From NCBI RefSeq assembly GCF_963675165.1, contig NC_087389.1, positions 3,904,830 to 3,968,829 on the forward strand: DNA of 64,000 nt, written 5' to 3'. The notes beneath the pieces were generated by a model. It did not search any database and was not told the DNA's origin. It worked only from the letters and a program-made list of their open reading frames with translations. The translations under genes were made by a program, and so were the position numbers. Shown in pieces: positions 26,433 to 60,486 of the stretch (position 1 is the first letter of the stretch; every line of letters starts with the position of its first letter). The DNA comes from Halichondria panicea. Taxonomy: Eukaryota; Porifera; Demospongiae; Suberitida; Halichondriidae.

Positions 26433-27609
26433 AATTTGCAGTAGTCATGCAGCTATCCCGATACTAAGTCTAGTTGTTTGATGCAAATGTACTGTAAGCC
26501 ACATACGATGCCTATAGATATACATGTATAGATATATAGCAGCTTTCATTATAATGATATTAATCAGGAAAACAGCATATCACGCTCCCCTGTCTGACAC
26601 ACTTTGCTATGGTATAGGGCTTTTACTGGTTGCTCGGCTGTGCCCACTACCTCATTTCTACCTGATTCCATCATTATTCTGTCAGGTGGTGTAATAGCAA
26701 TTTTTAATACCGTATTACTAGAATATTTTGTGGGAGAAAACCTCTACGAATGAGCCAATCAGCAGAAAATTTGACCCTTTGCTATCCGTAACTATTGCGT
26801 TTGGCAAGGATCGCGTGTATTTATATACTAGTAATAATTTAGATTTTATTATTAAATACCCTCACTGAATTTAATAGCAATCATGGAAACTGATAATCAT
26901 AAACATGTTTCAATTAATTATCACATTCAGAGAGTGAATGGTAAACTGTCATTCCAAATAATGGAAAGCATGATCATCACATGCATCTATAAGCCACTTC
27001 ATGTCAATTACTATATAACTGTTACTATACTCTCTGCAATTAGAACTACAAACATCTGTCGATGGCTGCATCTAATTTCTAAACACACTGCATGGTAGCT
27101 TTATTGGAGACTCATTCCTGAAGTGAGTTATACATTTGATACTATAATATTATGTATTCAGTGCATGCACTCAGACTGTGCAAAATTGTATATATATGTA
27201 CTGAAGTATTACAGGGGGATACAAGTAATCTATGAGGATCATTACAAGTTGCACAATTTAGGGCAGCAGAAATGCATGGATATAGTCAGACATTACTGAA
27301 ACATTTTCTCAGTATTTAGTGCGTATATATATACATTAGTAGGCTGCAGAGTATATACGTATAAGTTTGTACCCTGGTGTGCTCTGATACTATGGAGTAT
27401 CAATTGAAAACCTCCTGCATATACTCTATATATATGCATGCATGCATGCATGCTTTACATAAACTTTTTGGCTCTGCTGATAATAGCCTGCGTGCATGGT
27501 GAACTCCTCCAGAGGCTCGTTCTCCCGGAGATCTGACTATACTAGGAACTATAGGGTACATACAGTATTATGCTGTTCATGCACCCTGCAGGAATGTGCA
27601 TCTATGTAC
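26433..27609. other. Spacer between the BTBD9-like gene and the NLR locus
   Basis: AT-rich, with CATG and TATA-type simple sequence (GCATGCATGCATGCATGC near 27434). The last about 130 bp hold short frames such as GELLQRLVLPEI that may be a decayed piece of NACHT, but stops interrupt them. No intact NACHT P-loop was found anywhere in the window. Confidence 0.4.
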
Positions 27610-28236
27610 CTATATATACAACGGACATTCAGAAAAGTCTTTCAGGTGATTCCATTGAAGCACTTGACAACTTTGATTTCATTCCTGAGGAATTGCAGCA
27701 AACTTTCTGGCTCATATGCAAATTTGCCTACGAATACATGTCTAGAGATAAGATTTTCGGAGTCTGAATTGTCCTCCTTTTTCCCAGAAGCAATAAAATT
27801 GCGCGAAAATTTTTCCTGTTTTGGTCTGCTGCAGTTGGCACGCTCAATTCTATCCAGTGGCCATGGCTTGTCTTTTCACTTTGCTCACCTGACCATCCAG
27901 GAGTTCTTGGCTGCCCTCCATCTTGTAACTCTATCCAATGAAGAAAAAGCAGGTGTTCTTAATACTCATGCTAGAAGGGATCGGTTCTCCATGGTATGGA
28001 GGTTTGTTTTAGGTCTTGGAAGTAATAAGGAACAAGCCCATAAATACAGCAAGACTCTTATTCCTTTGGATGATTCTTTAGTTAATCACTTAACGTATGC
28101 AATCCGTGATGACGATATGTTATTGGCTCATTGTGCATTAGAGTCTAAAGATGACGTCATCAGTCAGAAAATAGCTGGTATGATCAATGGACAACTCTGA
28201 GTCAGTGTTTCTGACAACCCACATGATTATGTAGCT

Positions 28237-31200
28237 GTGTTACACGTACTTAATCATACATTAAGCTCCTCTAATCTAAATCTTAAGCTCAGAAAATGTG
28301 GTATAGGTCCAAAACAACTGAACCAGTTAGCTAACACTCTCGTTAGTTCCAGAAGCAGGCTGCAAGTTAAATCGTTGTACATAGACAACAGCAAGCTAAC
28401 TGACGAAAGTGTCACATATCTTTTAAGAAGGGCAGCAAATTCCTTTCAGTATGTAGAAACACTGTCATTTGAAGATGCAGGTATTAGTTGTTGGGTGCCT
28501 TCCACCCCTCTTAAACATCTCACTGACCTCGATGTATCCAACAATCCTCTCAATACAGAAAGCTATACTGAGTGACAACCTATCAAATCTAGAGGAGCTA
28601 AATCTGTCTAAAACTCTTACTGAAGACTCCGAAACAAATGGTACCCTACTTTCCACCCTCATTCCATCCATCATCTCACATTGTCTTCTCTTAAATAAGC
28701 TTGATCTATCAAAAAACATTCTTGCTTCGCATGGTGCATGTGTCTTGGGAGAATACTTTGTACCACTTACTACAAAAAGAAGGGAATTCAAACTTGATTT
28801 AAGCGACACAAGTATAGGCACTGAAGCAATGTTACTCTTCTCAAATAAAGTGGCTGAAATGCTGAAAAGCTTAGCTCCTTTTTTAGTCACAATATCAAGT
28901 GAATGTGATCTTATTCTTCAAAATAATCCACTTGGACACGATGGACTAAAAGCAATCTCTAGATTGCTAAGGAGTGAACTTTGCCCTGTTACAAAACTTA
29001 ATCTTGATGAAACGGACACGAGCAGTGACCACCTGCTTCAATCTTCTCAATGCAGTGGTCCAGGTGAAGAAGATAAAGTTGAAAGCAGCTCATTAACAGA
29101 ACTTAGAATGTGTAATAACAAGTTAGGTGGACACATTTATCTTGACTTTATGGTAACCACAGCAACAGAATATCTTTTCACCAACCTAGAGAAGCTGTAT
29201 TTAACTAACATTCTAATTGAAGATAACAGTAAAATTGGGGAAATCCTTAAACTATTGCTGATAACAATTGCATCTTATTGCCCCTGTTTGAATCATCTTG
29301 ATATCTCTGAAAATAATATTGGTGTACATATGTCGTCTGCACTTGGAGAAGCTTTCCCACTATTCATTTGCTCCCGAACACAAACAGTAGAGATTCATAT
29401 GGACAAATGCAATATCAATGATGAGGCAATGATTGCCTTTTCAGATCAAGTTTCTGCCAAAATGAAAGCTATACCTAAACAAGGATTCTCTGAATGCCAT
29501 CTTTATTTTGACGAGAATTCATTGGAGGGAAGTGAAGGCGTCTTAGCCATTCTTAAAATGCTCACAGTGTGCCCAATAACATATTTGGATATTTGCAACC
29601 TTGCACATCATGTAACTGAAACTCAGCTCCAACATGTCAGCCTTATAGCGAGTGATAATTATCCAAACACTGTTGTTGAAAGCAGTAATTTAACCAATCT
29701 GGATATGCGGAACACTAAAATCAGGGGATGTTGTCATATCAAGTGTTTAGAGATTGGAATAGTTAACAAGTATCTAACAAACCTTGAATGGTTGTGTTTA
29801 TCCAACACTCTAAGTGACAATGCTAAAGAAAATGGAGTACTACTATGTACATTACTGCCTGCTATTGCATCTCACTGCCCTTGTTTGGAAACATTGGATC
29901 TTTCTAAGAACAATCTTGGTGTGCCTGGAGCAGATGCACTAGGGGAAGCATTCCTTCAACTCGTTAGTGTTGGTGGAAAGTTGGACATTGACCTAAGTGA
30001 GGCTAGTTTTAATAGTGAGGCTGTGATCGCATTTATTGAGAAAGCAACCCACGCATCAGGCAATTTCACTGTTAGCAGGTCTCCTATCGCTGAGATTACA
30101 CTCACACTCAATGAAAATCCAATCGGATATAAAGGATTAGTATCTATCTTGAAAATGGTTTCAACCAGTGACTTCTCTTTTTCAGAACTAAGTATTCGTA
30201 ACATCACCGTACCTGACATTATGTCTCAGTCTAGTTCAATGCAAAGAGTAAGGGAAAATCAGATACAAATCAAATCAGATGTTATTCTCAGAGGTGGTAC
30301 ACTCTCAACACCAAGAGTTTATGATAGAGAGAGAGTATCGAACGTAGGCATACTGTGTATCAGATGTATGCGGAGAGTAACGTGACTTCCTGTATCTGTC
30401 ACAAGCTTGGAATTTGCACACTGACCAATCCAAGCGTGGGTGATGTAATCTATCAACCCATCCAAGTGTGGGTGATGTAATCTACTTTCTTGATAGATGA
30501 CATCACCCACACTTGGATTGGTCAGTGTGCAAATTCCAAGCTTGTGACAGATACAGGAAGTCACGTTACTCTCCGCATACATCTGATGTACAGTATGCCT
30601 ACGTTCGATACTCTCTCTCTATCATAAACTCTTGGTATAACTATAATAGGAAAAAAGAAAGAAAAAGCACAATGCCCATTAAATTCCTGGAGACATCATC
30701 AATGGCAGGGTATTTTTCTAGCCTGGAGAGCTTAGACTTATCCAACACTCTAAGTGACAATGCTGATGAAAACAAAGTACTACTATGTACACTACTACCT
30801 GCTATTGCATCTCACTGCCCTTGTTTGAAAACACTGGATCTGTCTCAAAATAATCTTGGTGTACCTGGAGCATGTGCACTAGGGGACACATTTCATCAAT
30901 TCATCAGTAGCAAAGAAAGTTTTGACATTAACCTAAGCGAAACTAGTCTTGACAGTGTTGCTGTAATGGTACTTACTGAGAAAATATTAGGCACTTTAAG
31001 TGTGAACATAGCCACTGAGGTTGAGCTAAAATTTGATGACAATCCTGTTGGGTATAATGGTCTGGTATCCATCTTCAAACTAGTTGCAACCAGAAACTGT
31101 GGGATTTCGCAATTAGAACTCTGCAGTCTGATTGAGCCTAACATAGTTACTTACAATAACATCCAGTTTTGTGCAGATGATCTTGCTGGTAGTAGGCAAC

Positions 31201-34200
31201 TTACAAAAATCAGTATGTACTCCTTTTCAGCTGAGGCTGGGCAGAGAGGGGAAATATACGTAAACTGCCTGGAGGCAGCAATAATAGCAGGTGCTCTACC
31301 TAATCTAGAGAAGTTGGATGTATCGAATTTTCTGGGCAATAGTAGATCTACTAATAAATCATTACTGACCAAACTTTTACCAGCCATTGCGTCCTACTGC
31401 CCATACTTGGAAGATCTGGATCTCTCTCGGAATAACTTGGGTACACCTGGAGCAACTGCATTAGGTGAAGCATTTTGGCTGCTTATTACTACCAGAAATC
31501 AATTGGACCTTGACTTACATAAATGTAATCTTGATAGTGAGGCTGTGACAGCATTCTCTGAGATAATAACCCACAAATTGTCGTCATTAAATACTTTTGT
31601 GTTGAGAAAGAGTATGAAATGTGATATAAATCTAAGTGAAAATCCAATTGGGCAGGAAGGCCTCGTAGCCATCTTCAATATTCTCACTTTAAAACACTGT
31701 CCAATTAGTAAACTCAGTCTGGACGATCTTGTTCTTGAATCGGGTTCTCAATACAGAAACGCCCAGCAAGTGAATCCAAGTGCAACTGACCTACTATTGC
31801 TTCATTCTTGTGTAGAAATTAACAAACTGAAAACTCTGAGTATGTCCAATGCCTGCATTGGTGGAGATTGCAATTGGCACATCAGATACTTGGAGAAAGC
31901 AATAAAAACGGGTGCTTTGGCCAATATGGAGGATCTTGACTTATCCAATAGTCTGACAAAGAATGCCCATGTAAATGCATCACTGTTGACTACACTGTTG
32001 CCAGCCATTGCTTCCTATTGCCCACATCTTATCGAGCTTAATTTGTCTCAAAACAAACTCTGTGTACCAGCAGCACAGGTGCTGGGAGAAATGTTACCAC
32101 TTTTTATCAGTGGCAGAAAGCAATTTGACCTTAATCTAAAAGAGTGTTTTCTTGATAGTGAGGCTGTGACAGCAATTACGAGAATATATGCTAGGCCTTA
32201 CATTTCCTCATCAAATACTTTTTGGATGCGGTCACAGTTCACTCTTTGCCTTAATGAGAATCCGATAGGACATAAAGGGTTACTAGCCATCTTTGCAAAC
32301 TGTTCGTTTACAAGATTAGAAGTCTGTTATCTCAAAACTGAATCTCACATTCAACAAGATGAGAATTTTTGTGTTGATAATTTGTATCAAAGTACATTAA
32401 AAACACTTGACATGGAAAACCATTGGACAAGCCATTGGACACGAAAAAGCAGAGCTAAAGGAGAACTACTGATAAAGTGCCTGAAAACAGCAGCAATTGC
32501 AGGTGTGTTGGTAAATTTGGAACGATTAGATTTACGCAAAACTGTACCAGATGCAAACAAAACACTTTTGACACCATTGCTAACTGCAATTGCCTCTTGT
32601 TGTCCTCACCTGAATAATCTTAATTTGTCTAACAATGAACTTGGTGTAGCTGGAGCACGTGCATTGGGAGAGACATTTCTGCTGCTTATCAATAGTAGGA
32701 AAAGATTCAACCTCGATTTAAGTGAAAACAATCTTGACAGTAAAGCAATGGCAGTGTTTTCTGAAAAGATGGCTGATACTATAACTTCACTACCAAAGTC
32801 AGTCTCAATGCTGAATGAATATGATCTTTGTCTTAATGAAAATCCATTTGGATACGAAGGATTTATTACAACATTTCAATTAAAAGATTGTCCAATTACA
32901 ACCCTGAAAATCAACAACACAATCGTCTGTCCTAATGGTGAAACAAAATGGAATTCAAAATCTGATTCTTTAAGATTTCGTTCTGAAATAATGCAAACTT
33001 GTGTGAGCAAATCTGCATTTGAAGGATACTAAATCAAGTAGAGGAGATCATATCAAAGCATTGGAAGCAGTGATAAATACAGGCATATTGCGCAACTTAC
33101 AGATACTAAATTTATCAAACAGCCTCTTAAATGGTGAACTATTGATCACACTCTTACCATTGATTGCTTGTAACTGTCCAGGCCTCAATGACCTTGATCT
33201 TTCTAAAAACAATATTGGTGTGCCAGGAGCAAGCGTTCTAGGAGAAGCTTTTCCACTACTAATTAATAGCAGAAATGTATTCCAGCTTGACTTGAGTGAA
33301 AACAACCTAGATAGTATGGCTATGACAGTGTTCACTGAGAAGGTTATTGCAATTAGTAAACTAAAATCTGTATCAATTTCACAATCCACCAAATGTGATA
33401 TTCACTTGTCATTAAACAAAAATCCACTCAGGTACGAAGATTTGCTAGGAATTTTTAGAATTCTTCAATTTGACTGTTGCAGAATTTCAAAACTAGAGAT
33501 TGAGGACACAGTCGTTAATGTACTATCAATTGATTTTGCGACTAGTCAACTGGAAAACACACAAAAATTCATGTCTAAATTGCAGAAACTTTGCATGAGC
33601 AAAAATACTGCCAGTAGTCGACTTCATCTAAACGCACTTTTTTCAATGTTACCAACAGGTATTTTCACAAATTTGGAGGAGCTAAACTTGGCTCAAACTC
33701 TTCTGAGCAATTGTGGTGAGCTACTAAGCATTCTTCTACCATCTCTCTCATCTCACTGCCCTCACCTTGTCGACCTTGATCTATCCGAAAATCACGTTGG
33801 AATTGATGGGGCTTGTGCATTGGGAGAAAACTTCCTTCTGCTCACAAGCAATAAGAAGCAGTTTCATCTAGACCTGAGTGAGTGTAGCATTGACAATGAA
33901 TGTATGATAGCATTTTCTGAACAAATGGCTGAGAAAATGTTTCGATCTACTGAGATTACATTATTCACCGAATGCCATCTTTGTCTTGATAAAAATCCAC
34001 TTGAATCTACAGGACTATGGGAAATAATGAAAGTTCTTAGCTACGAGAGTTGTCCAATCACCAGACTGGATCTCCGAAGAACTCAACGCACAACCACAAA
34101 TAGTGGCATTGATGAAATGTCTAATTTCAACACAGTCATGAGTAGTAGGTTGACTACGCTCCATCTAAATGACAACAGACTTAACGGAGACACTCATCTC

Positions 34201-36795
34201 AAAATATTAACTATAGTGGTGAAGTCAGGACTACTGGCCTCTCTCGAAAAATTTGATCTATCTGAGTCAGTTATTGCTAGGAATGACGAAGCATCATTGA
34301 CAGAACTCATATCATCTTTATCTACCTATTGCCCTAAGCTAACAAGCTTAGACTTTTCAAACACTAATCTTAATGTACCTGAAGCATGTGCATTAGGTGA
34401 CAACTTGACACTACTCGTTTATGGTAAAAAACAATTTCATCTCGACTTGAGTAAGACATATTTTGATACTGAAGCATCGATAGCATTCTGTAAAAAAGTA
34501 ATTGACAAACTACTATCTTCAACGGACACTTCATCTACAAGAGAATTAGAATACAGCAGCTGTGCTCTTTATCTCAACAGAAATCCAATAGGATATAATG
34601 GTTTCTTGGCCCTTTTTAAAATGCTCAGCACAAAATTGTGTCCAATTACAAATCTGCAAATCAAAGATACTTACAACTCAACCACTGAAATTAACAGCAC
34701 TGACCTAGAGGCAGATAGTGTTATGGGCAGTAGGTTGACTACACTTTGTCTTGGTGATAATCAGTTTACCGGAGAAATATATGCAAGAGCATTCAAAGTG
34801 GCTGTAAGGGTAGATGTTCTAGAGTTTAGACCTTTCAAATGCTCTCACTTATAACATGGACACAAATGGAGTGCTGCTAACCACACTCTTACCATGCCTT
34901 GCCTCTCATTGCCCTAGCCTAGCGACTCTTGATCTCTCCAAAAATAATCTTGGTGTGCCTGGAGCACGCCCACTGGGAGAAACATTCCCACTATTCACAA
35001 CAAGCAGAAAAGAGTTTACTCTTCATCTAACTAAGGCTAATTTTGACAGTGCTGCTTTACTTGTCTTCTGTGAAGCAATTAAACTATCTTCAATAGAGGA
35101 AGTTCCTTTCAGTACGGAAAATTACGACATTGAAAATGTTATGTATCTCAACCAAATCCATTGAACTATGACACTTTGCTAGCAATGTTTAGTGCCCTCA
35201 GATGCAGAAGCTGCCAAATCACAACGTTATATCTCAACAACACAGATTACACCACAATGTCTGGCACAAAAGGTATTTTACCTAGCATTGACGCTGATGG
35301 CATGAGCAGCTGTTTGACAACACTGCACCTGAATGACAATCATTTTAGTGGTGAAGCACATATAAATGCATTAGAAGAAGCAGTAAGGGCTGACATTTTA
35401 GTCAATTTGAAGAAGCTATATTTGTCAAACACTCTCACTATTAACAGCAAGAAAAATGGTGAACTATTGAGTAGGCTGCTGCCTTCAATCGCTCAAAATT
35501 CCCCCAAATTAAAGATTTTGGATATTTCAGATAATAATCTAGGTGTTCCTGGAGCATGTGTACTAGGAAAAGTTTTACCAGCTCTCATTGGCAGTAGGGA
35601 TGAGTTTTACCTTGATTTATGCAATACAGATCTCGATAGCCAAGCTATGACAGCTTTTACACAAGAGGCAATTGACGGGCTGTCTTTATTGACTACCCCA
35701 CCACCTGCAAATTCCAAACTCCAGCTTAACGATAATCCTATTGGATACGCCGGACTGTTCGCTCTTTTTAAATTATTAAACACTAAAAACTGTGCAATTA
35801 CAGATCTCAGTCTGACCAACACTGCTTTATATATCCCAGCTATAGAAAATGGTTTTCAGTATGTCAATAACTTAACTACTTCCATTGATGTTACCGTCGT
35901 CAGCAATTTACGAATCCTTAACCTCGGAGACAATAGGTTTTGTGGCGTAACCTATATTCGTATGTTGGAGGTAGCCATCCAAAGTGGCATGCTGATCTAC
36001 CTTGAGGATCTAGACCTGACAAACACCTTTCCCAACGATAGTGACATTAACGGAGCATTGCTCGCATCAATTTTGCCTACAATAGCCAGTTCATGTCCTT
36101 ACCTTTTATCACTTGACCTGTCACTCAACAATTTGGGTGTTCCTGGAGCATATGCAATAGGAAAAGCTCTTCCAATGCTAACAATTGCCAATATTAGTTT
36201 GGTTGACACTTATCTTTTTAGTGAAGCTATAAAAGCTTTTTCAAATGGTTTTGCAAGCACAAGTTGCTTTGCTTGTAATCTCTGCAACTGTATAGTTGAT
36301 CTCAGCGAAAATTCGATTGGGTCAGATGTTCTACCAGCTCTACTCAGTGTTATTGAAGATAAGAGCTGCCCGATTATAATACTTGATCTTAATCTCACTA
36401 ATTCGAAAAACCAATGTGTTCAGAAAGTTAGCAGTGAAATTAGCAACAATAGAGGACTAATAACTGTTGACTTACGCAGGAATAATTTGCATGGAGATAA
36501 CATTTTTGTGTTGGCTGAATTCCTTTCATTGTGCCAATCGCTTGAAAAGCTTCAATGCACAGATTGTTATATTACATCCACTGATGTGAGTAATCTATTT
36601 TCACAAATGAAGTCGAGCAGCATAAAACACAACACTTTGAAAGAATGGGATCTTCAAGACAACTTAGTTGGCAACAAAGGAATTGATATATTTCTTGAGA
36701 ATCTACTCGATTTGTTCCCGGGTCTGGAACAGATTAAACTTGATGGCAATCCAGCCAAGTATGAGCCGAAGAAAAAACTTGAGGAGTTTCTGAAG
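28237..36795 (+). repeat. Array of 13 leucine-rich super-repeats (about 590 bp / 195 aa each)
   Basis: Each unit repeats an anchor like LLPAIASHCPCLETLDLSKN followed by NLGVPGA.ALGEAF, then a LDLSE..LDSEA block, a LNENPIGY.GL..IF block, a CPIT.L block and an L..L..NLE.LDLSN block. Anchors start near 28661, 29258, 29854, 30793, 31375, 31990, 32577, 33151, 33737, 34312, 34885, 35476 and 36070. Spacing is 573-615 bp once the 325 bp insertion between units 3 and 4 is removed. About 195 aa corresponds to roughly seven LRRs of 28 aa, the ribonuclease-inhibitor type found in NLRs. Long open stretches are 28469-30310, 30636-33032, 33019-34854, 34856-35164 and 35161-36795. The final unit ends in a normal LRR cap. 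Confidence 0.85.
30311..30635. mobile_element. Fold-back element (arms about 147 bp) inserted in the LRR array
   Basis: The left arm starts CCAAGAGTTTATGATAGAGA and the right arm ends with its reverse complement. The arms stay almost identical for about 147 bp (CAGATGTATGCGGAGAGTAA, CAAGCTTGGAATTTGCACAC) around a loop of about 30 bp. It interrupts super-repeat 3/4 and shifts the frame. High arm identity suggests a recent insertion. I could not define a clear target duplication. Confidence 0.9.
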
Positions 36796-36857
36796 GTACA
36801 CGTAGTATATATAAAGTATATAATTATACCCTAAAGGTTTTTCTTACACAAACACAG

Positions 36858-38481
36858 AGGGGAAAGAAATCTTCTCAATCCCATCATGCTGGAATATCTG
36901 ACAGTGAAGCAGATGGGAAAATGGAACAAGACCTTACTAAAAAAGAGGTATAAGGCGATAGTATATGAGGTGCATGCATGCACACTGCATCAGTTCAGTA
37001 GCCTCTTTCACAAGGCCCCAGGCCATCTCAGTACGGCCTGGGATTGAGACTACAGTATTCAGTAGACTAAATACAGTTGCAGTGCATGGACATGCATGCA
37101 CTTGCATGAACTGATTGTGTCTGATATAGTAATTATCTAATTAAAGCAGGGATTAATGTGGGACGATTTACTGGAGGAGATGATACAGCACTTCAAGAAG
37201 TTGATTGAAGAAAATAATGTACAATCGTGCAATTCTGAATCAGACAAAACAGTAAGTGTAGCACACAATACCAGACAATAATTATAGTGGAGGTATATTA
37301 TAGTGAAGGCTCAGCTCAGGTCGATCTATAACAATTATATATGTCAAGCTGGGATGGGTAAATAGAATAAGAACATGCATGCAGCTCTACGTGCAATTGC
37401 CTTTTCTACAGTTCCCATCACCTGTTATCAGTGATAACTCAGACAGTCATCTCTCAGCCACAGATGAGCCAGATTCATTGTTGGGGGAAATGGATACAGA
37501 GGAGGCCATAATGCAAAGAATGGATAAATTGGAAATTCACATCTGTTGAGTATAATTATTTGTTCAATATGTTGCTCATTAACATGCCCACTGTAAGCCT
37601 CTTCCCACTGTAAGCCTCTTCTTTCGAATAATAATATGCTTGAGTACAATGCCAGAATCAAATTTGGCTCTTTCATGACATGATTATTGCAATCCACAAT
37701 GCAAATATGCCCAGCACATTCTCGTTATGTTATACAGGCTCTAGAGAATCTCCACCCGTCAAGATAGACAAACTAACTGGTGTAACAGCATCCCCAGTGA
37801 CCACACCCTCCCCACACCGCTCTCCCTCAGGTGTGGCCATATATTGATATTTCTGACCATGTGACTACAATTAACCCCTCTAACCCCAACCCAATGTTGT
37901 CATAGGAAGTGGTGGACTGAGGACACTGATTATTGAGGAACTGAAGGAACGTACTAAAGTGACCGACTCTCAACTTGATGAACAAATTCAACAAAAAGAC
38001 ATGTTCAAACTTTCCGCTTACTTTGGTAGTGTAGAAGACTACATAAATTACTTAGAACTAACCCCTAGCCAGCAAACTGACATTAAAGACCTAGCGTTAA
38101 GAAGAAGCACACAAACCGCCATGACCGAGGTGTTGAAATTGTGGAGAGAGCATAACCCATACACTGCCACGTACCGATCACTATTGGAACTTTTATTGGA
38201 TATGGGAAAAGGAGAAGTGGCTTCTCAAGTGTGCTACTACCTCAGCTCCAAATGTGAGTTATTGCATTATACAGTAATTGTGTGAGGAGCCTAGTATTCA
38301 ATTACCGGAATTCTAGAGGTATAAGATCTCCTATATATACATTCATATAATTATACCAACCAAAATCAGTATAGTAGATAGTTAACTCTATCTGATAGAG
38401 ATATAAGTAGACTCTATATACTTTACTTTCGGCTACCACACAAACTTTTTCCCATCTGCAGGTCAACATACATACATGTAG
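36858..38481 (+). CDS. 3' exons of the NLR-like gene: acidic linker and C-terminal death-fold domain
   Basis: Exon 36795 ends FLKVH-side at an AAG|GTACAC donor, then 36858-36947, 37150-37251, 37412-37544 (weak GTTGAG donor), 37738-37830, 37906-38253 and a short last exon 38462-38481. Phases agree at every junction, which argues that these exons belong to the LRR gene. Linker exons are acidic and Ser/Pro-rich (MDTEEAIMQRMDKLEIHIC, then TASPVTTPSPHRSPS). From about 37930 the sequence has death-domain spacing: LDEQIQQKDMFKLSAYFGSV, LELTPSQQTDIKDLA, TEVLKLWREHNPYTATYRSL LELLLDMGKGEVASQV. Death domains mediate homotypic adaptor recruitment. If exon 37412 instead reads through, it stops at TGTTGA and the death domain would be a separate gene. 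Confidence 0.65.
36999..37052. repeat. TAGCCTCG-family short palindrome in an NLR intron
   Basis: TAGCCTCTTTCACAAGGCCC CAGGCC pairs with the downstream GGCCTGGGATTGAGACTA. Same family as 9201-9264. Confidence 0.65.
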
Positions 38482-42590: not shown

Positions 42591-43511
42591 TTAACACAAA
42601 ACACCTTTAGTCTTCATTATTCCGTGCGTTTTCTCAGCATCTTCAATAGACGGAGGATGAACAAGATAGTCCTTGCACTTATCTTGACGCCACTTCTTTA
42701 CATTCATATCTGAACGAAATCGACTGTCACGTTTCATTTCTAAGTTGAATGGACTGATCCAAGCTCCAACTGAGACATCTTCATTGTTGTAGAGTTGTAA
42801 GACCATCAACATTGATAGCAATTCTGTATTTAGATAATACATAACCCCCTCCCAATGCATACGGCAGGTATTTGTCACACAACTTCCAATTTGGTTCCGC
42901 CCACTTTCCTTCTTTCCTTGGAGTACTTTGTGATGCAACCAAACCCCAGTAGAGTGGTTTTCCGCTAGTTCTTCCAATTCAATCTGATCCAACTTAGGGA
43001 ACGAGTTTTCGTCAATTTTCAGTACAAAGGAGTAGTCTGTGTTTTTGTCTACCCACACAAAGGTATGTAAAACTTTCCTGGTGAGGTTATTGTATGAATC
43101 CAGGTGATCGGTCAAAAGTAATAAATCACCAAACTTCTTGCTCTCTGAAATCAGCGAATCTCTTTCGTTAACATTCCGATCAAGGGCTCCTATAACAAAC
43201 TTGACTGCAAACTTCTTTTTGTGTTCGACATAGCTACCCACCCAAGTCTTCCTAATCACATCTCTCCTAGCTCTGTTTTCAGGTGTTTCAATGACCATCA
43301 CGAGTAAAACATTATTTGGATTATTAGCTGTTTCAGGCAAATCATTGGATACAGCTGTGGCATCTGTTGGTTGGCTCCATTGATTGTGATTCAGCTGCTC
43401 ACATTGGGTTTCAAAAGACAATTTGGCTAGGTACCATAGAGTTGCAGTATATATGGTTGAAACTAGTAGCAACACAGCAAACTCTTTATACATTCTAATA
43501 ACAAAACGCAT
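42591..43511 (-). pseudogene. B3GALT6-like copy 2, internally frameshifted and re-framed
   Basis: Open over 306 codons, but the middle is out of frame. Relative to copies 3-5 it has a 10 bp deletion at about 42971, a 9 bp deletion near 42826 and a 1 bp insertion near 42794. Between the first and last, the catalytic LYWGL...GGGYVLS region is read in the wrong frame ([19 protein letters not shown]). The correct frame resumes at [12 protein letters not shown]. The DxD motif has become DEN. The N-terminal anchor and C-terminus (GVLC) are normal. It almost certainly lacks transferase activity, yet the reading frame is uninterrupted. It sits just right of a 3' breakpoint: homology to the other copies starts at the stop codon. 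Confidence 0.85.
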
Positions 43512-43715
43512 ACTGACAAGGAATTCTGATCAACCTTCTACTCATAAGTCAGCCTGCCTAGCTTTTGTGACCACCTGCTACATAGATAGTTACTTCCTCC
43601 TATTCAATGCATATACAATGACATGCTTCCTTATATAGAGTAAGTAATCAAACACAATGGAGGTTTATTCTAAGGAAACAAGCAGTGGTATACTATTTTA
43701 CACCATCTGATTAAG

Positions 43716-44881: not shown

Positions 44882-45688
44882 TCAACAGCTGTTGAGTGCG
44901 ATGTAATTTATCACGGGGTATAGTTGCAGTTTGAATGTGTGTGTATTAATAAGGATCCCTAAGAATGTTAGTGTGGTGGTTGGACCTTCGGTTTTTTGTG
45001 ATGCCACTGGGATTCCGAGGGAGTCGAGTGTTGCTAATGCTGTATCTCGTGTACGCTTCCCCTGATCGCAATTTGGGGGTGCTAAGAAGAGGAAGTCGTC
45101 TAAGTAGTGTATCTGATGTTGAATGCCCCTGCAATGGAGTACCCATGCGGTGAGATCTGCCACGGTGTTGAAAAGTTTAGGGGCTGAACGTAACCCGAAT
45201 GGTAGGGCATGATCAAGATAGAGTTGACCCTGCCATGTGATGCCCAGCAGCGTATAGTCTGCAGGATGGACAGGGACAATCCTGTATGCGTCCTTGAGAT
45301 CTAGCTTGATGAGTTGTGTGTCGCGGCCTAAAAGGTTGATAATGTTTACGGCATCGTGGACCGTAGCATATTGCATGGAGCAAAGAGCAGTTGGAATGCC
45401 GTCGTTGACGCTGTGCCCGTAGGGTGCTGATAGATCACAAATCAATCTCCATTTGTTCGCCTGGTGTGCTTTTGGGACGAGGCCCAGAGGGCTGATGTTT
45501 TGTTTGTAACTCATTATTGGGCCTAGCATGCGATTGGCTGCTAACTCTGTACAAAGTCTTTCCTGCACAAAGTGTGGGTTTGCTAGTGCAGAGAGATGAT
45601 TACGGGTGTAGGAGCGAAGGTGATCTCGGGGGGCCATGAAAGCCAATACGAAAGCCCTCTTGGATGCTTTTATACATATACGATGCAT
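44882..45688 (-). pseudogene. DIRS-type reverse transcriptase domain
   Basis: 268 codons open. Motifs: LGLVPKAHQANKWRLICDLS, IKLDLKDAYRIVPVHPADY, LPFGLRSAPKLFNTVADL and HYLDDFLFL (YxDD active site as YLDD), then TFLGILINT. This motif style is typical of tyrosine-recombinase retroelements rather than gypsy. The active-site aspartates are intact, but the element is truncated and frameshifted on both sides. Confidence 0.9.
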
Positions 45689-46070
45689 AGCATTGGTCGG
45701 GGTGTGCCCGCAGAAAGGGCTCTAGCTGAACAAGATTGATAGGAGATGTGTAACGAGGGCACTTTGTGTAATTCTCCATCAGCGACGAGCCTGCCGTAAG
45801 CGTCTGTAAGTCGTAAGTCTTTCCGGATTTGATGTTTGCGCACGGCAAGTCCCGCCTATAGATAGCACCTGCAGCAGGAAAGATAAATATGGCTTAGGAG
45901 GCATGCATGCGTATTGCGTGACGCAACTAATATGAGCCTGCACGCACCAACGCAAATGACAATATGACGGCAGAGAAAGTGCATTTACTTGCAAAACAAC
46001 ACAAAACAACAGCATAATTATTTGTAAGATAATATACATTAAATGCAAAGAGACAAACTAGCTGCTCGCA

Positions 46071-49200: not shown

Positions 49201-50193
49201 TCAGTTGCATGATAATGTAAAAAACACACACACAGAATAGAACATGAACATAAGCATTAACAAAACTCCTTTACTCTTCATTAGTTTGTGAGTTTTCTCC
49301 GTATCTTCAATAGACAGATGATGAACAAGAAGATAGTCCTTACACTGTTTGTGATCCCAACTTTTATCTACCTTTGTACGAAATCGTTCGTCATTTTTTC
49401 TTTCTGAGTCAAATGGACTGATCCAAGCTCCAACTGAGACATCTTCGTTGTTGTAGAGTTTAAGACCGTCAGCATTGATAGCAATTCTGTGTATAAGGTA
49501 TTTAGATAATACATAACCCCCTCCAAATGCATACGGCAGGTACTTGTCACACAACTTCCAATTTGGTTCCGCCCACTTTCCTTCTTTCCTTGGAGTACTT
49601 TGTGATGCAACCAAACCCCAGTAGAGTGGTTTTCCGCTAGTTCTTTCTTTCAATTCCAATTCAATCTGATCCAACTTAGGGAACGAGTCTTCGTCAATTT
49701 TCAGTACAAAGGAGTAGTTTGTGTTCTTGTCTACCCACACAAAGGTATGTAAAACTTTCCTGGTGAGGTTCTTGTATGAATCCAGGTGATCGGTCAAAAG
49801 TAATACATCGCCAAACGTCTTATTCTCAGAAATCAGCGACTCTGTTTTGTTAGCATTCAGATCAAGGGTTCCTATAACAAACTTGACTGCAAACTTCTTT
49901 TTGTGTTCGACATAGCTACCCACCCAAGTCTTCCTAATCACATCTCTCCTAGCTCTGTTCTCGGGTGTTGAAATGACCATCACAAGTAGTACATTATTTA
50001 GAATATTAGCTGTTTCAGGCAAGTCATTGGATACAGCTGTGGCATCTGTTGGTTGGCTCCATTGATTGTGATTCAGCTGCTCACATTGGGTTTCAAAAGA
50101 CAATTTGGCTAGGTACCATAGAGTTGCAGTATATATAGTTAAAACTAGTAGCAACACAGCAAACTCTTTATACATTCTAATAACAAAACGCAT
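49201..50193 (-). CDS. B3GALT6-like glycosyltransferase, copy 3, with stop-loss extension
   Basis: 330 aa, with MRFVIRMYKEFAVLLLVLTI signal-anchor, RRDVIRKTWVGSY, KIDEDSFPKLD (DxD kept as DED), LYWGL, YAFGGGYVLS and [10 protein letters not shown]. Compared with copies 4 and 5, a 2 bp deletion in the last codons changes GVLC-stop to GVLL and adds about 20 mostly hydrophobic residues (MLMFMFYSVCVFFTLSCN). The conserved terminal Cys is lost. Similarity to the other copies also ends at this point, so a duplication breakpoint probably created the new tail. The catalytic domain looks intact, so activity is possible, but a second hydrophobic end would be odd for a Golgi type II enzyme. Confidence 0.8.
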   Translation of the reverse strand: MRFVIRMYKEFAVLLLVLTIYTATLWYLAKLSFETQCEQLNHNQWSQPTDATAVSNDLPETANILNNVLLVMVISTPENRARRDVIRKTWVGSYVEHKKKFAVKFVIGTLDLNANKTESLISENKTFGDVLLLTDHLDSYKNLTRKVLHTFVWVDKNTNYSFVLKIDEDSFPKLDQIELELKERTSGKPLYWGLVASQSTPRKEGKWAEPNWKLCDKYLPYAFGGGYVLSKYLIHRIAINADGLKLYNNEDVSVGAWISPFDSERKNDERFRTKVDKSWDHKQCKDYLLVHHLSIEDTEKTHKLMKSKGVLLMLMFMFYSVCVFFTLSCN

Positions 50194-50446
50194 ACTGACA
50201 AGGAATTCTGATCAACCTTCTACTCATAAGTCAGCCTAGCTTTTGTGACCTGAATGTGTAACTGAGCAATTACCTACTACATAGACTTCCTCCCGCATAG
50301 TGTCTACAATGACATGCTTCCTTATATAGAATACATGCAGACCCAGTGGATGTTCATCTAAGAAAACAAGCAGCATAAGCAGTGATCATGATACTATTTT
50401 ACACCATCTGATTAAGTATGTACAGCTTACTATGTACTATATATGC

Positions 50447-54412: not shown

Positions 54413-55351
54413 TTAACACAAAACTCCTTTACTCTTCATTATTTCGTGAGTTTTCCCAGCATCTTCAATAGACAGATGATGAACAAGAAGATAGTCCTTG
54501 CACTGATCGTAATGCCAGTTTTTTTCCGTCTCTGAACGAAATCGTTTGTCATGTTTTCTTTCCAAGTCGAATGGACTGATCCAAACTCCAACTGAGACAT
54601 CTTCATTGTTGTAGAGTGTAAGACCGTCAGCATTGATAGCAATTCTGTGTATAAGGTCTTTAGATAATACATAACCCCTTCCCAATGCATACGGCAGGTA
54701 TTTGTCACACAACTTCCAATTTGGTTCCGCCCACTTTCCTTCTTTTGTTGGAGTACTTTGTGATGCAACCAAACCCCAGTAGAGTGGTTTTCCGCTAGTT
54801 CTTTCTTTCAATTCCAATTCAATCTGATCCAACTTAGGGAACGAGTCTTCGTCAATTTTCAGTACAAAGGAGTAGTCTGTGTTTTTGTCTACCCACACAA
54901 AGGTATGTAAAACTTTCCTGGTGAGGTTATTGTATGAATCCAGGTGATCGGTCAAAAGTAATAAATCGCCAAACGTCTTATTCTCGGAAATCAGCGACTC
55001 TGTTTTGCTAGCATTCAGATCAAAGGTTCCTATAACAAACTTAACTGCAAACTTCTTTTTGTGTTCGACATAGCTACCCACCCAAGTCTTCCTAATCACA
55101 TCTCTCCTAGCTCTGTTCTCGGGTGTTGAAATGACCATCACAAGTAGTACATTATTTAGAATATTAGCTGTTTCAGGCAAGTCATTGGATACAGCTGTGG
55201 CATCTGTTGGTTGGCTCCATTGATTGTGATCCAGCTGCTCACATTGGGTTTCAAAAGACAATTTGGCTAGGTACCATAGAGTTGCAGTATATATGGTTGA
55301 AACTAGTAGCAACACAGCAAACTCTTTATACATTCTAATAACAAAACGCAT
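54413..55351 (-). CDS. B3GALT6-like glycosyltransferase, copy 4
   Basis: 312 aa, single exon, ATG giving MRFVIRMYKEFAVLLLVSTI. Full set of GT31 motifs: RRDVIRKTWVGSY, DSYNNLTRK, KIDEDSFPKLD (DED), [15 protein letters not shown] and terminal GVLC. One change lies at a strongly conserved site: the GGGYVLS turn is GRGYVLS. Its 3' flank matches those of copies 1 and 5 for about 60 bp. Predicted to be a Golgi lumenal transferase; the Gly-to-Arg change may weaken it. Confidence 0.88.
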   Translation of the reverse strand: MRFVIRMYKEFAVLLLVSTIYTATLWYLAKLSFETQCEQLDHNQWSQPTDATAVSNDLPETANILNNVLLVMVISTPENRARRDVIRKTWVGSYVEHKKKFAVKFVIGTFDLNASKTESLISENKTFGDLLLLTDHLDSYNNLTRKVLHTFVWVDKNTDYSFVLKIDEDSFPKLDQIELELKERTSGKPLYWGLVASQSTPTKEGKWAEPNWKLCDKYLPYALGRGYVLSKDLIHRIAINADGLTLYNNEDVSVGVWISPFDLERKHDKRFRSETEKNWHYDQCKDYLLVHHLSIEDAGKTHEIMKSKGVLC

Positions 55352-55624
55352 ACTGACAAGGAATTCTGATCAACCTTCTACTCATATAAGTAATTCTGTC
55401 TTGCCTAGCTTTTGTGACCTGAATGTGTAACTGAGCAATTACCTACATATATACATAGACTTCCTCCCATTCAATGCATACAATGACATGCTTCCTTATA
55501 TAGAGTACATGCAGACAATGCATGTTCAGATATTTATTCTAAGGAAACAAGCAGCATGAGCAGTGATATACTATTTTACACCAACTGATTAAGTATGTAC
55601 AGCGTACTATGTACTATGCAGATG

Positions 55625-56227: not shown

Positions 56228-57352
56228 ATAAGGTAACTCAGTAGGTTCAACGGAAGTCGGGGCCACCACCGGCATGATGTGGTCAATAATGACAATATAC
56301 TGGATGATATTGTAATGAAATTCACCGTATTCTCTGTATACCACCCCGCTTCGAATGGACTAGCCGAGAATGCAGTCCAAATTGTGAAGATTGGCTAAGT
56401 TTTTGTTTGCCTACCCATTTGTTCGCCTACCACAGAAGACTAACACTGCATGGAGTTTATCCTGCCCAAATATTTTGGGACGTAGACCTCGGTCCAGATT
56501 AGATATCTTACGACCACTGACAGCTGAAAAAGTAGATAATCAGCAATTCTACTAAAAGGGCAAACACAGCTCATGATAGATCGTTCGTTTGGTATCACTA
56601 GGGTGATAAGTAGTTGCCTGGAACTATAGAGAAACAAACTGGTCCAGTGTCTTCTTGCTATTAAGTGATGGATGCCACCAGGACCAAGCTCAGGAATGAC
56701 TAATTGAATCCGAACCATTTGCGAGTGAAGTGACTGTCGAAGTTTATACCTTAGTTCAGACCTAGCTGCCTGGCACTCGTTCCCAATGGGTGACCGGGGG
56801 ACACGCTTATGTAGGATTTGTACTGCTGTGTTATGCAATACTGCTCTGTCAAAACCGCAGAATGCTGCTCTGTTTGCTTATGAATAAAATTATAAACCGC
56901 ACGTCCGATTATGAATATCGTTATCTTGGAAATACTGCAATCTGATTGGGCTGCACTCCTCAGTGCAGCAGTACAAATCCTGTATAAGCATGTCCCCTGG
57001 CCACCCGTTGGGAACGGGTGCCGGGCCTCAGTGCAGCAGTACAAATCCTGTATAAGCATGTCCCCTGGCCACCCGTTGGGAACGGGTGCCGGGCCTCAGT
57101 GCAGCAGTACAAATCCTGTATAAGCATGTCCCCTGGCCACCCGTTGGGAACGGGTGCCGGGCCTCAGTGCAGCAGTACAAATCCTGTATAAGCATGTCCC
57201 CTGGCCACCCGTTGGGAACGGGTGCCGGGCTACGCCCAGCTAGTTCAGACCCTCTGATCGAAGTGAGGGCGGGACCTGAAATCGTGCCAATGGAGCCGGA
57301 TATTGACAGAGTGCCGGTAGGAAACGCCGTGGTTACCCCACCCAAGACTTAA
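56228..57352 (+). mobile_element. Ty3/gypsy pol C-terminal fragment with expanded minisatellite (unit 4)
   Basis: Near-identical duplicate of 51126-52034 (YHPASNGLAENAVQIVK, LGRRPRSRLDILRP). It differs mainly by expansion of one 68 bp segment to four tandem copies. Confidence 0.8.
56959..57230. repeat. 68 bp minisatellite, four tandem copies
   Basis: The unit starts CTCAGTGCAGCAGTACAAAT and ends CCGTTGGGAACGGGTGCCGG GC. Starts at 56961, 57029, 57097 and 57165 give an exact 68 bp period with almost no divergence. The paralogous site at 51849-51910 has one copy. Confidence 0.95.
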
Positions 57353-59366: not shown

Positions 59367-60305
59367 TTAACACAAAACACCTTTACTCTTCATTATTTCG
59401 TGAGTTTTCTCAGCATCTTCAATAGACAGATGATGAACAAGAAGATAGTCCTTGCACTGATCGTGATGCCAGTTTTTTTGCATATCTGAACGAAATCGTT
59501 TGTCATTTTTTCTTTCCAAGTTGAATGGACTGATCCAAGCTCCAACTGAGACATCTTCATTGTTGTAGAGTGTAAGACCGTCAGCATTGATAGCAATTCT
59601 GTGTATAAGGTATTTAGATAATACATAACCCCCTCCCAATGCATACGGCAGGTACTTGTCACACAACTTCCAATTTGGTTCCGCCCACTTTCCTTCTTTC
59701 TTTGGAGTACCTTGTGATGCAACCAAACCCCAGTAGAGAGGTTTTCGGTTAGTTCTTTCTTTCAATTCCAATTCAATCCGATCCAACTTAGGGAACGAGT
59801 CTTCGTCAATTTTCAGTACAAAGGAGTAGTCTGTGTTTTTGTCTACCCACACAAAGGTATGTAAAACTTTTCTGGTGAGGTTATTGTATGAATCCAGGTG
59901 ATTGGTCAAAAGTAATAAATCGCCAAACGTCTTATTCTCGGAAATCAGCGACTCTGTTTTGCTAGCATTCAGATCAAAGGTTCCTATAACAAACTTAACT
60001 GCAAATTTCTTTTTGTGTTGGACATAGCTACCCACCCAAGTCTTCCTAATCACATCTTTCCTAGCTCTGTTCTCGGGCGTTGAAATGACCATCACGAGTA
60101 GTACATTATTTAGAATATTAGCTGTTTCAGGCAAGTCATTGGATACAGCTGTGGCATCTGTTGGTTGGCTCCATTGATTGTGATCCAGCTGCTCACATTG
60201 GGTTTCAAAAGACGATTTGGCTAGGTACCATAGAGTTGCCGTATATATGGTTAAAACTAGTAGCAACACAGCAAACTCTTTATACATTCTAATAACAAAA
60301 CGCAT
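59367..60305 (-). CDS. B3GALT6-like glycosyltransferase, copy 5
   Basis: 312 aa from ATG at 60305 (MRFVIRMYKEFAVLL). All GT31 motifs are present: [50 protein letters not shown] (intact, unlike copy 4), [10 protein letters not shown] and GVLC. The DxD is DED. Of the four minus-strand copies this is the best preserved. Very close to copy 4 and also to copy 1 near the C-terminus (RFRSDMQKNWHHDQCKDYLL). Likely a Golgi lumenal galactosyltransferase-like enzyme. Confidence 0.9.
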   Translation of the reverse strand: MRFVIRMYKEFAVLLLVLTIYTATLWYLAKSSFETQCEQLDHNQWSQPTDATAVSNDLPETANILNNVLLVMVISTPENRARKDVIRKTWVGSYVQHKKKFAVKFVIGTFDLNASKTESLISENKTFGDLLLLTNHLDSYNNLTRKVLHTFVWVDKNTDYSFVLKIDEDSFPKLDRIELELKERTNRKPLYWGLVASQGTPKKEGKWAEPNWKLCDKYLPYALGGGYVLSKYLIHRIAINADGLTLYNNEDVSVGAWISPFNLERKNDKRFRSDMQKNWHHDQCKDYLLVHHLSIEDAEKTHEIMKSKGVLC

Positions 60306-60486
60306 ACTGACAAACAATTCTGATCAACCTTCTACTCATAAGTCAGCCTAGCTTTTGTGACCTGAATGTGTAACTGAGCAATTACCTACTACATAGACTG
60401 CCTCCCATTAAATGCCATGCTTCCTTATATAGAGTACATGCATGCAGACAATGTTAAGTATGTACAGCTTACTATGTACTATGCAG

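Follow-up and report, generated by a model that had tools for sequence, protein, structure and literature searches.

INTRODUCTION

In PIDD1, LRRs are followed by two ZU5 domains, a UPA domain, and a C-terminal death domain (DD), and the protein is not known to contain a NACHT domain. The FIIND (ZU5-UPA) undergoes self-cleavage. As stated in an excerpt of the corresponding article, NLRP1 carries a C-terminal FIIND-CARD arrangement (PMC11508797). The NLRs of the sponge Dysidea avara have been assigned to the categories NLRD, NLRC, and NLRX; the article excerpt names DEATH or CARD as N-terminal domains and gives NLRX, the class with no recognized N-terminal domain, as the largest (PMC12909245). 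The order NACHT-LRR-DD was not found in the literature excerpts searched, a set outside which lies Yuen et al. 2014, where this layout is possibly described. In the text search, the string NACHT-LRR-DEATH had no occurrence, the phrase "C-terminal death domain" combined with NACHT, LRR, and invertebrate matched only receptor and TRADD-type proteins, and the order was not seen in the searched text of PMC8195603, PMC2575513, PMC5094078, PMC8242945, PMC6208332, and PMC13133943.

We analyzed a locus of the sponge Halichondria panicea that is contained in a stretch of 64,000 nucleotides, referred to in its entirety as the window. Our main reading, to which we assign a probability of roughly 0.8, is that this locus is a decayed, 5'-truncated copy of an NLR with a C-terminal DD, an order that appears to recur in a group of NACHT proteins of the same genome, termed clade A.

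RESULTS

Structure of the window locus

The individual features are listed in Table 1. The first-pass annotation had described 13 LRR super-units followed by a DD exon, connected through an acidic linker by phase-compatible exons; we confirmed that these elements are located on the same strand and that the predicted exon chain joins in phase. The AAG/GT end of the LRR exon matches that of the sister genes. Linker exon 3 resembles by eye its sister counterpart (..LWDTLLSEM..), and the sister linker exon 2 at the matching place (25 codons, phase 0) is by eye unlike the window sequence. The window DD scored 25.6 bits with PF00531, which is over the Pfam cut-off of 22.6, and possesses the six helices of a death fold; a phmmer search of this DD against the PDB sequences retrieved no death domain, and the best hit (E 0.029) was an unrelated protein.

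Table 1. Features of the NLR-like locus, in window coordinates
Feature	Position	Strand	Remarks
Helical domain (HD) remnant from the NACHT-LRR interval, plus first LRRs	27600..28557	+	tblastn with sister proteins, Pfam
In-frame TGA	28198..28200	+	Within homologous frame; sister protein aligns across
LRR super-units 1-3	28589..30262	+	
Foldback (inverted-repeat) element in LRR region	30310..30636	+	Arms of 147 nt, 97% complementary
LRR super-units 4-7	30723..32945	+	
LRR super-units 8-10	33097..34806	+	Frame change before (33010-33030) and after (near 34824)
LRR super-units 11-13	34826..36432	+	Break in unit 11 (35080 to 35155)
Final LRRs and LRR exon end	36433..36795	+	tblastn to sister; AAG/GT end, donor GT at 36796
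Predicted linker exon 2	36858..36947	+	30 codons, phase 0
Predicted linker exon 3	37150..37251	+	34 codons (GLMWDDLLEEM...)
Predicted acidic linker exon 4	37412..37549	+	End at 37544 via weak donor, else TGA at 37547-37549
Predicted linker exon 5	37738..37830	+	Sister exon 5 at corresponding place
DD exon	37906..38253	+	Acceptor tag before, donor gtgagt after
Predicted tiny terminal exon	38462..38481	+	CQHTYM, stop; tiny terminal exons in sisters too

The 5' part of the gene is incomplete. Two sister proteins align only from 27600 onward, i.e., after the position of the NACHT domain; no NACHT fragment was found upstream of this point by tblastn with the same two proteins, and none of the NACHT places listed genome-wide (150 of 249 candidates scored) is located inside the window. 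The copy is thus devoid of the NACHT domain of animal NLRs; the LRRs occupy the place that they take behind NACHT in these receptors, and LRR_6 was recognized by Pfam in four of six window frames. The HD remnant matched NLRC4_HD2 with an E value of 3.8e-6 and 27.8 bits, under the cut-off of 33.1. Five frame changes were detected (near 27745-27755, 28551, 33010-33030, 34824, and 35080-35155). The foldback element is present at no fewer than 40 places in the genome, including the window (40 scored of 408 candidates, all matching). Its 85 matching pieces range in identity from 76 to 100% (most exceed 94%), and since many are 97 to 100% identical, the element was probably active recently. The lack of NACHT, the five frame changes, the in-frame stop, and the insertion of a multicopy foldback element indicate that the window copy is very probably a decayed, 5'-truncated NLR relic from which, very probably, no working receptor is made. 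A reading of the locus as a working NLR gene was therefore not borne out.

Other elements were observed elsewhere in the window. Five frames resemble one another, one on the plus strand (677-1648) and four on the minus strand (42591-43529, 49201-50211, 54413-55369, and 59367-60323); the two that were scanned both matched Galactosyl_T (PF01762), and the five appear to form a local glycosyltransferase array. A reverse transcriptase frame (RVT_1) is located between the glycosyltransferase copies at 44885-45721, and a 68-bp unit is repeated four times with a 100% match at 56958-57230.

Duplication of LRR super-units

The LRR super-units had initially been described as segments of about 590 bp with about seven LRRs each; the length was retained, but the model gives about six LRRs per unit. 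Tandem Repeats Finder, with its period limit of 500, did not report them. The 13 window units have a mean mutual identity of 38% and are 38 to 41% identical to sister units, so that the window array is old, and its recent amplification was rejected.

The same LRR blocks were found at seven sister loci, namely, at C7:3.30 Mb (L017), in five copies on C11, and in one copy on C17. In the C7 gene, NACHT, a region that weakly matches the helical domain, and six LRR units lie in a single open frame of 1934 aa, and this gene alone is open; the long arrays of the other six loci are broken. The C17 copy is interrupted by an insert of some 400 bp, and the C11 breaks examined look like short indels; introns were accordingly rejected as the cause of the breaks. 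Mean unit identity amounted to 0.85 within the C7 gene, 0.85 within the C17 gene, and 0.77 to 0.85 within the three C11 genes measured. Between different sister genes, it was 0.69 to 0.83; the C7 and C17 units showed 0.69 to 0.80 with other sister genes and 0.38 to 0.41 with the window. The units of C7 group as one clade (support 100/100), and two adjacent C11 units (C11d_2 and C11d_3) are nearly identical. These sequence relationships indicate that duplications of a 590-bp block, which contains about six LRRs, enlarged the LRR part in one subfamily, and this growth is seen most clearly in the C7 and C17 sisters. The amplification en bloc that had been suggested for the window array thus applies to its sisters (identity of 0.85 within C7 and C17, and the C7 clade) and not to the window, where the units have diverged to 38%.

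Gene models of the sister loci

The NACHT domains of L017, L022, L027, and L028 scored 67.5, 72.7, 86.3, and 77.7 bits, respectively (Pfam cut-off, 26.7). In L017, L022, and L027, NACHT is followed by LRRs within one frame, which in L027 is an open frame of 865 aa. A Met heads a common N-terminal motif (e.g., MDKFIASIRRKY) in 12 of the 13 clade-A NACHT exons read, and the 13th (L019) has the same Met in another frame just upstream. This conserved Met is located about 80 to 100 aa ahead of the Pfam NACHT match in L017, L022, L027, and L028, and an in-frame stop precedes it by one codon in L027 and L032; a short 5' exon may be joined just ahead of it. Pfam recognized no death fold upstream of the clade-A NACHT in one upstream frame per locus at nine loci, and it recognized neither a death fold nor a pyrin domain ahead of NACHT in L017 and L027.

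An alignment of nine C13-type genes, among which L028 is the most divergent, revealed that the end of the LRR exon, the linker exons, the DD acceptor, and the DD donor coincide where they are reached in the aligned parts read. In L031 and L051, an open splice chain runs from the LRR exon across four linkers as far as the DD; in L052 and L053, it is open from linker exon 2 onward to the DD. The splice-pattern script found no open exon chain in the other four of the eight genes (L027, L030, L032, and L054). At the 3' end, 5 of 10 sister loci share a tail exon (..CNR..) after an intron of 52 to 63 nt, with the sequences KPEPVMCNRT (L027 and L054), KHVICNRRSI (L053), KPVGCNRI (L032), and KPMMCDVVCNRRRSI (L031). 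A different tail is possible for L029 and L030 (KTPLV..), L028 and L051 have short dissimilar ends, and L052 is without such a donor; the common tail exon was not seen in these last three loci. When left unspliced, the frame stops at most six codons from the end of the DD profile in L027, L030, L031, L032, L053, and L054.

The sister C-terminal DDs are under purifying selection, as dN was lower than dS in all 36 pairs among nine sister genes (median ratio, 0.36). The scores of those scanned with Pfam Death, where listed, are 12.5 to 18.1 bits, with none for L019; because these values are below the cut-off, the assignment of the death fold to the sister DDs is based on their homology to the window DD.

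Census of death modules around NACHT domains

To define the family, the NACHT domain of L027 was used as the query. At least 42 places (merged from 44 rows) were 57 to 100% identical to it and constitute clade A; 106 other rows had identities of 32 to 41%. In a tree of 12 sampled clade-A and 9 other NACHT domains, clade A was one clade (98/96) in all 200 bootstrap trees. We then matched the 148 NACHT places against 338 rows for death modules, allowing distances of at most 9 kb on the downstream side and 4 kb on the upstream side; 150 of 642 DD candidates and 150 of 503 Death candidates had been scored (148 of the latter listed), and eight DD places were added locally. As only part of the candidates were scored, all census counts are lower bounds, and "none" does not equal absence.

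A number of observations were made. (i) Among the matches listed, 36 of the 42 clade-A places have a death module downstream within 9 kb (32 downstream only and 4 on both sides); 1 has a module upstream only, and 5 have none. All five upstream modules are of type 2, and each lies 2.7 to 3.0 kb behind the NACHT of a tandem neighbor. The N-terminal death fold of classical NLRD and NLRC proteins was thus not found in clade A among the matches listed. (ii) The 106 other NACHT places include 17 with a listed module, which is upstream in 16 of them; among the matches listed, 15 have it upstream only, 1 on both sides, 1 downstream only, and 89 have none. (iii) Under a stricter rule, by which each module is assigned to its nearest NACHT only, the matches listed give 26 downstream, 5 both, 2 upstream, and 9 none for clade A and 1 downstream, 16 upstream, and 89 none for the others. 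(iv) The DD is located 2.4 to 2.7 kb behind NACHT in 14 of 17 single-block clade-A genes with a type-1 or Pfam DD. Taken over clade A, type-1 and Pfam DDs are found 2.4 to 7.5 kb behind NACHT, whereas the DDs of classical genes are found 317 to 2191 bp before it, and the NACHT-DD spacing is conserved in dispersed copies on C13, C6, C8, and C4.

The search for sister loci with the DD behind the LRRs, recommended in the first-pass annotation, was hence successful, with at least 36 of 42 clade-A places bearing a downstream death module. An NLR layout in which the DD follows the LRRs is supported by the sister census, the splice chains, and the gene ends, and the genomic order indicates that it recurs in one NACHT clade. 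Outside clade A, a PF00531 match was located 4.6 kb downstream of one NACHT place (G000:C16:5712794-5718208) and may be an independent C-terminal DD.

Diversity of the tail modules

A tree was built from 26 DDs. In it, the C7, C11, and C17 genes have C-terminal DDs that group with the four N-terminal NLR DDs sampled (100/99). The C-terminal DDs of the C13 type are found in another part of the tree, together with the DD of L005, a region without any NACHT place among the matches listed; with a support of 88/92, this fork is open. The window DD is weakly placed (73/46). The C-terminal class requires four label changes on this tree, at least two of which are forced by starred branches. No type-1 or Pfam DD is listed for 18 clade-A places, and 12 of them have a type-2 module 2.4 to 4.2 kb downstream. 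In the four of these 12 places whose sequence was read, the module is split across two exons; it appears death-like by its pattern, and Pfam gave no Death match for it. One clade-A place on C4 has a PF00531 match downstream. Judging from these sequences, no fewer than two DD lineages, and in addition a split death-like module, are represented at the clade-A tail.

In the genes on C7, C11, and C17, the LRRs are followed first by a weak DD, matched only over its first half, and next by a strong, full DD that occupies its own frame. The weak matches, at L019:7985-8173, L022:9619-9807, L025:3447-3605, and L017:9185-9382, may be relics or linkers. About 1.8 kb behind the C7 DD, a type-2-like exon (L018:1978-2121 and L018:1056-1154) may be either a third tail module or part of a neighboring gene. 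Two different death-like frames in a row (L036:4968-5462 and L036:7017-7319) were seen beside a frame that by eye is GTPase-like, the second of them closely related to clade-A tails; Pfam recognized no domain in the large frame of L036.

DISCUSSION

Proposed receptor and alternative explanations

The intact gene is proposed to encode, in this order, a short N terminus, NACHT, a helical region, LRRs, acidic linker exons, a C-terminal DD, and a short tail. In the living animal, the LRR and DD exons would give rise to one protein. Its NACHT domain would serve as a nucleotide-driven assembly switch, and the LRRs may restrain NACHT and sense a ligand or the state of the host. Upon activation, the assembly of several receptors would bring their C-terminal DDs together, and these would recruit partners via DD-DD contact. 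Candidate partners are the ROC and ankyrin-ROC proteins with related DDs that are encoded in the same genome.

The main functional rival to this reading is that the C-terminal DD is an integrated decoy that imitates a DD of the death pathway, by which the receptor would notice attacks on such domains. The tail modules do vary between lineages though NACHT remains one clade, analogous to the integrated domains of plant NLRs, which are variable modules, and the purifying selection on the DD is compatible with both a decoy and an output domain. However, a DD that is only a decoy would leave the scanned proteins without a recognized output domain, and we regard this explanation as rather unlikely.

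The main structural rival is that the LRR gene and the DD gene are separate, adjacent, and co-duplicating, the latter being a small adaptor gene that starts in the linker region. Linker exon 3 starts with ATG in seven of the eight sister genes read (ATA in L053), so that DNA by itself would accommodate a separate short DD gene, and the in-frame TGA in the window closes the linker frame unless the weak donor is used. On the other hand, conserved donors close both the LRR exon and linker exon 2, these two exons share a reading frame with exon 3 and the DD in the resolved genes, the window has no ATG in the open DD frame ahead of the domain, and dispersed copies would have had to preserve the NACHT-to-DD spacing noted above. 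Judged by the sister genes, a separate DD transcript is unlikely.

It is more doubtful still that the window locus is functional and that its breaks are assembly errors or introns. Its linker, DD, and tail exons do form one open frame, but NACHT is missing, and the five frame changes, the in-frame stop, and the repeated foldback element occur where C7 is a single open frame. Finally, the DD exon is followed by a splice donor, and classical DD-NACHT genes are present in the genome, but the view that this exon forms the N terminus of another NLR gene downstream, with the classical DD-NACHT-LRR order, was rejected as hardly tenable, as it is largely contradicted by the ends of the sister genes, whose frames stop soon after the DD (in five through the common tiny exon), and also by the lack of a listed NACHT place inside the window and by the different DD-NACHT distances of classical and clade-A genes.

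Comparison with known systems

With the reading of the locus as a relic of an NLR with a C-terminal DD, the closest described systems can be compared as follows. (i) The DAPK-like ROC and ankyrin-ROC genes of the same genome have related DDs (57% identity for L033 and 54% for L035). Pfam recognized Roc in both, and a GTPase core takes the place of NACHT-LRR; DD and Roc are putatively parts of one gene, as read from their order. (ii) Like PIDD1, clade A has LRRs ahead of a C-terminal DD; unlike PIDD1, it has NACHT, and no ZU5 or UPA was seen in the L051 linker scanned. (iii) As in NLRP1, described in the article excerpt cited above, the death-fold domain of clade A is located after the LRRs, but it is a DD and not a CARD. 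Between the LRRs and the death fold, Pfam recognized no FIIND, ZU5, or UPA in the spliced L051 linker and three window linker exons, so that the FIIND typical of an NLRP1-like protein is not seen there. (iv) Like the NLRs of Dysidea avara, as far as they are described in the article excerpt (PMC12909245), clade A combines NACHT with LRRs, many copies, and a wide range of LRR numbers; in contrast to the N-terminal domains named there, its death fold is C-terminal, on a separate exon, in a class without a recognized N-terminal one, and scores under the Pfam cut-off in the sisters scanned.

NLR activation models assume an N-terminal effector gathered by a NACHT wheel, and the order NACHT-LRR-DD would raise the question of how a DD located past the LRR horseshoe is gathered. 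Clade A also provides naturally occurring swaps of the output module within a single NACHT clade. We see an even chance that part of the sponge-type NLRX proteins are armed C-terminally, by a death-fold exon cassette located behind the LRRs and swapped among members of one NACHT clade, with independent lengthening of the LRR block by six-LRR duplications. If this is true, sensor length and output module would evolve as two independent dials at one end of the gene. The tail DD, placed on its own exon and under the Pfam cut-off in the copies scanned, would then be a possible reason why effector-less NLRs abound in sponge annotations.
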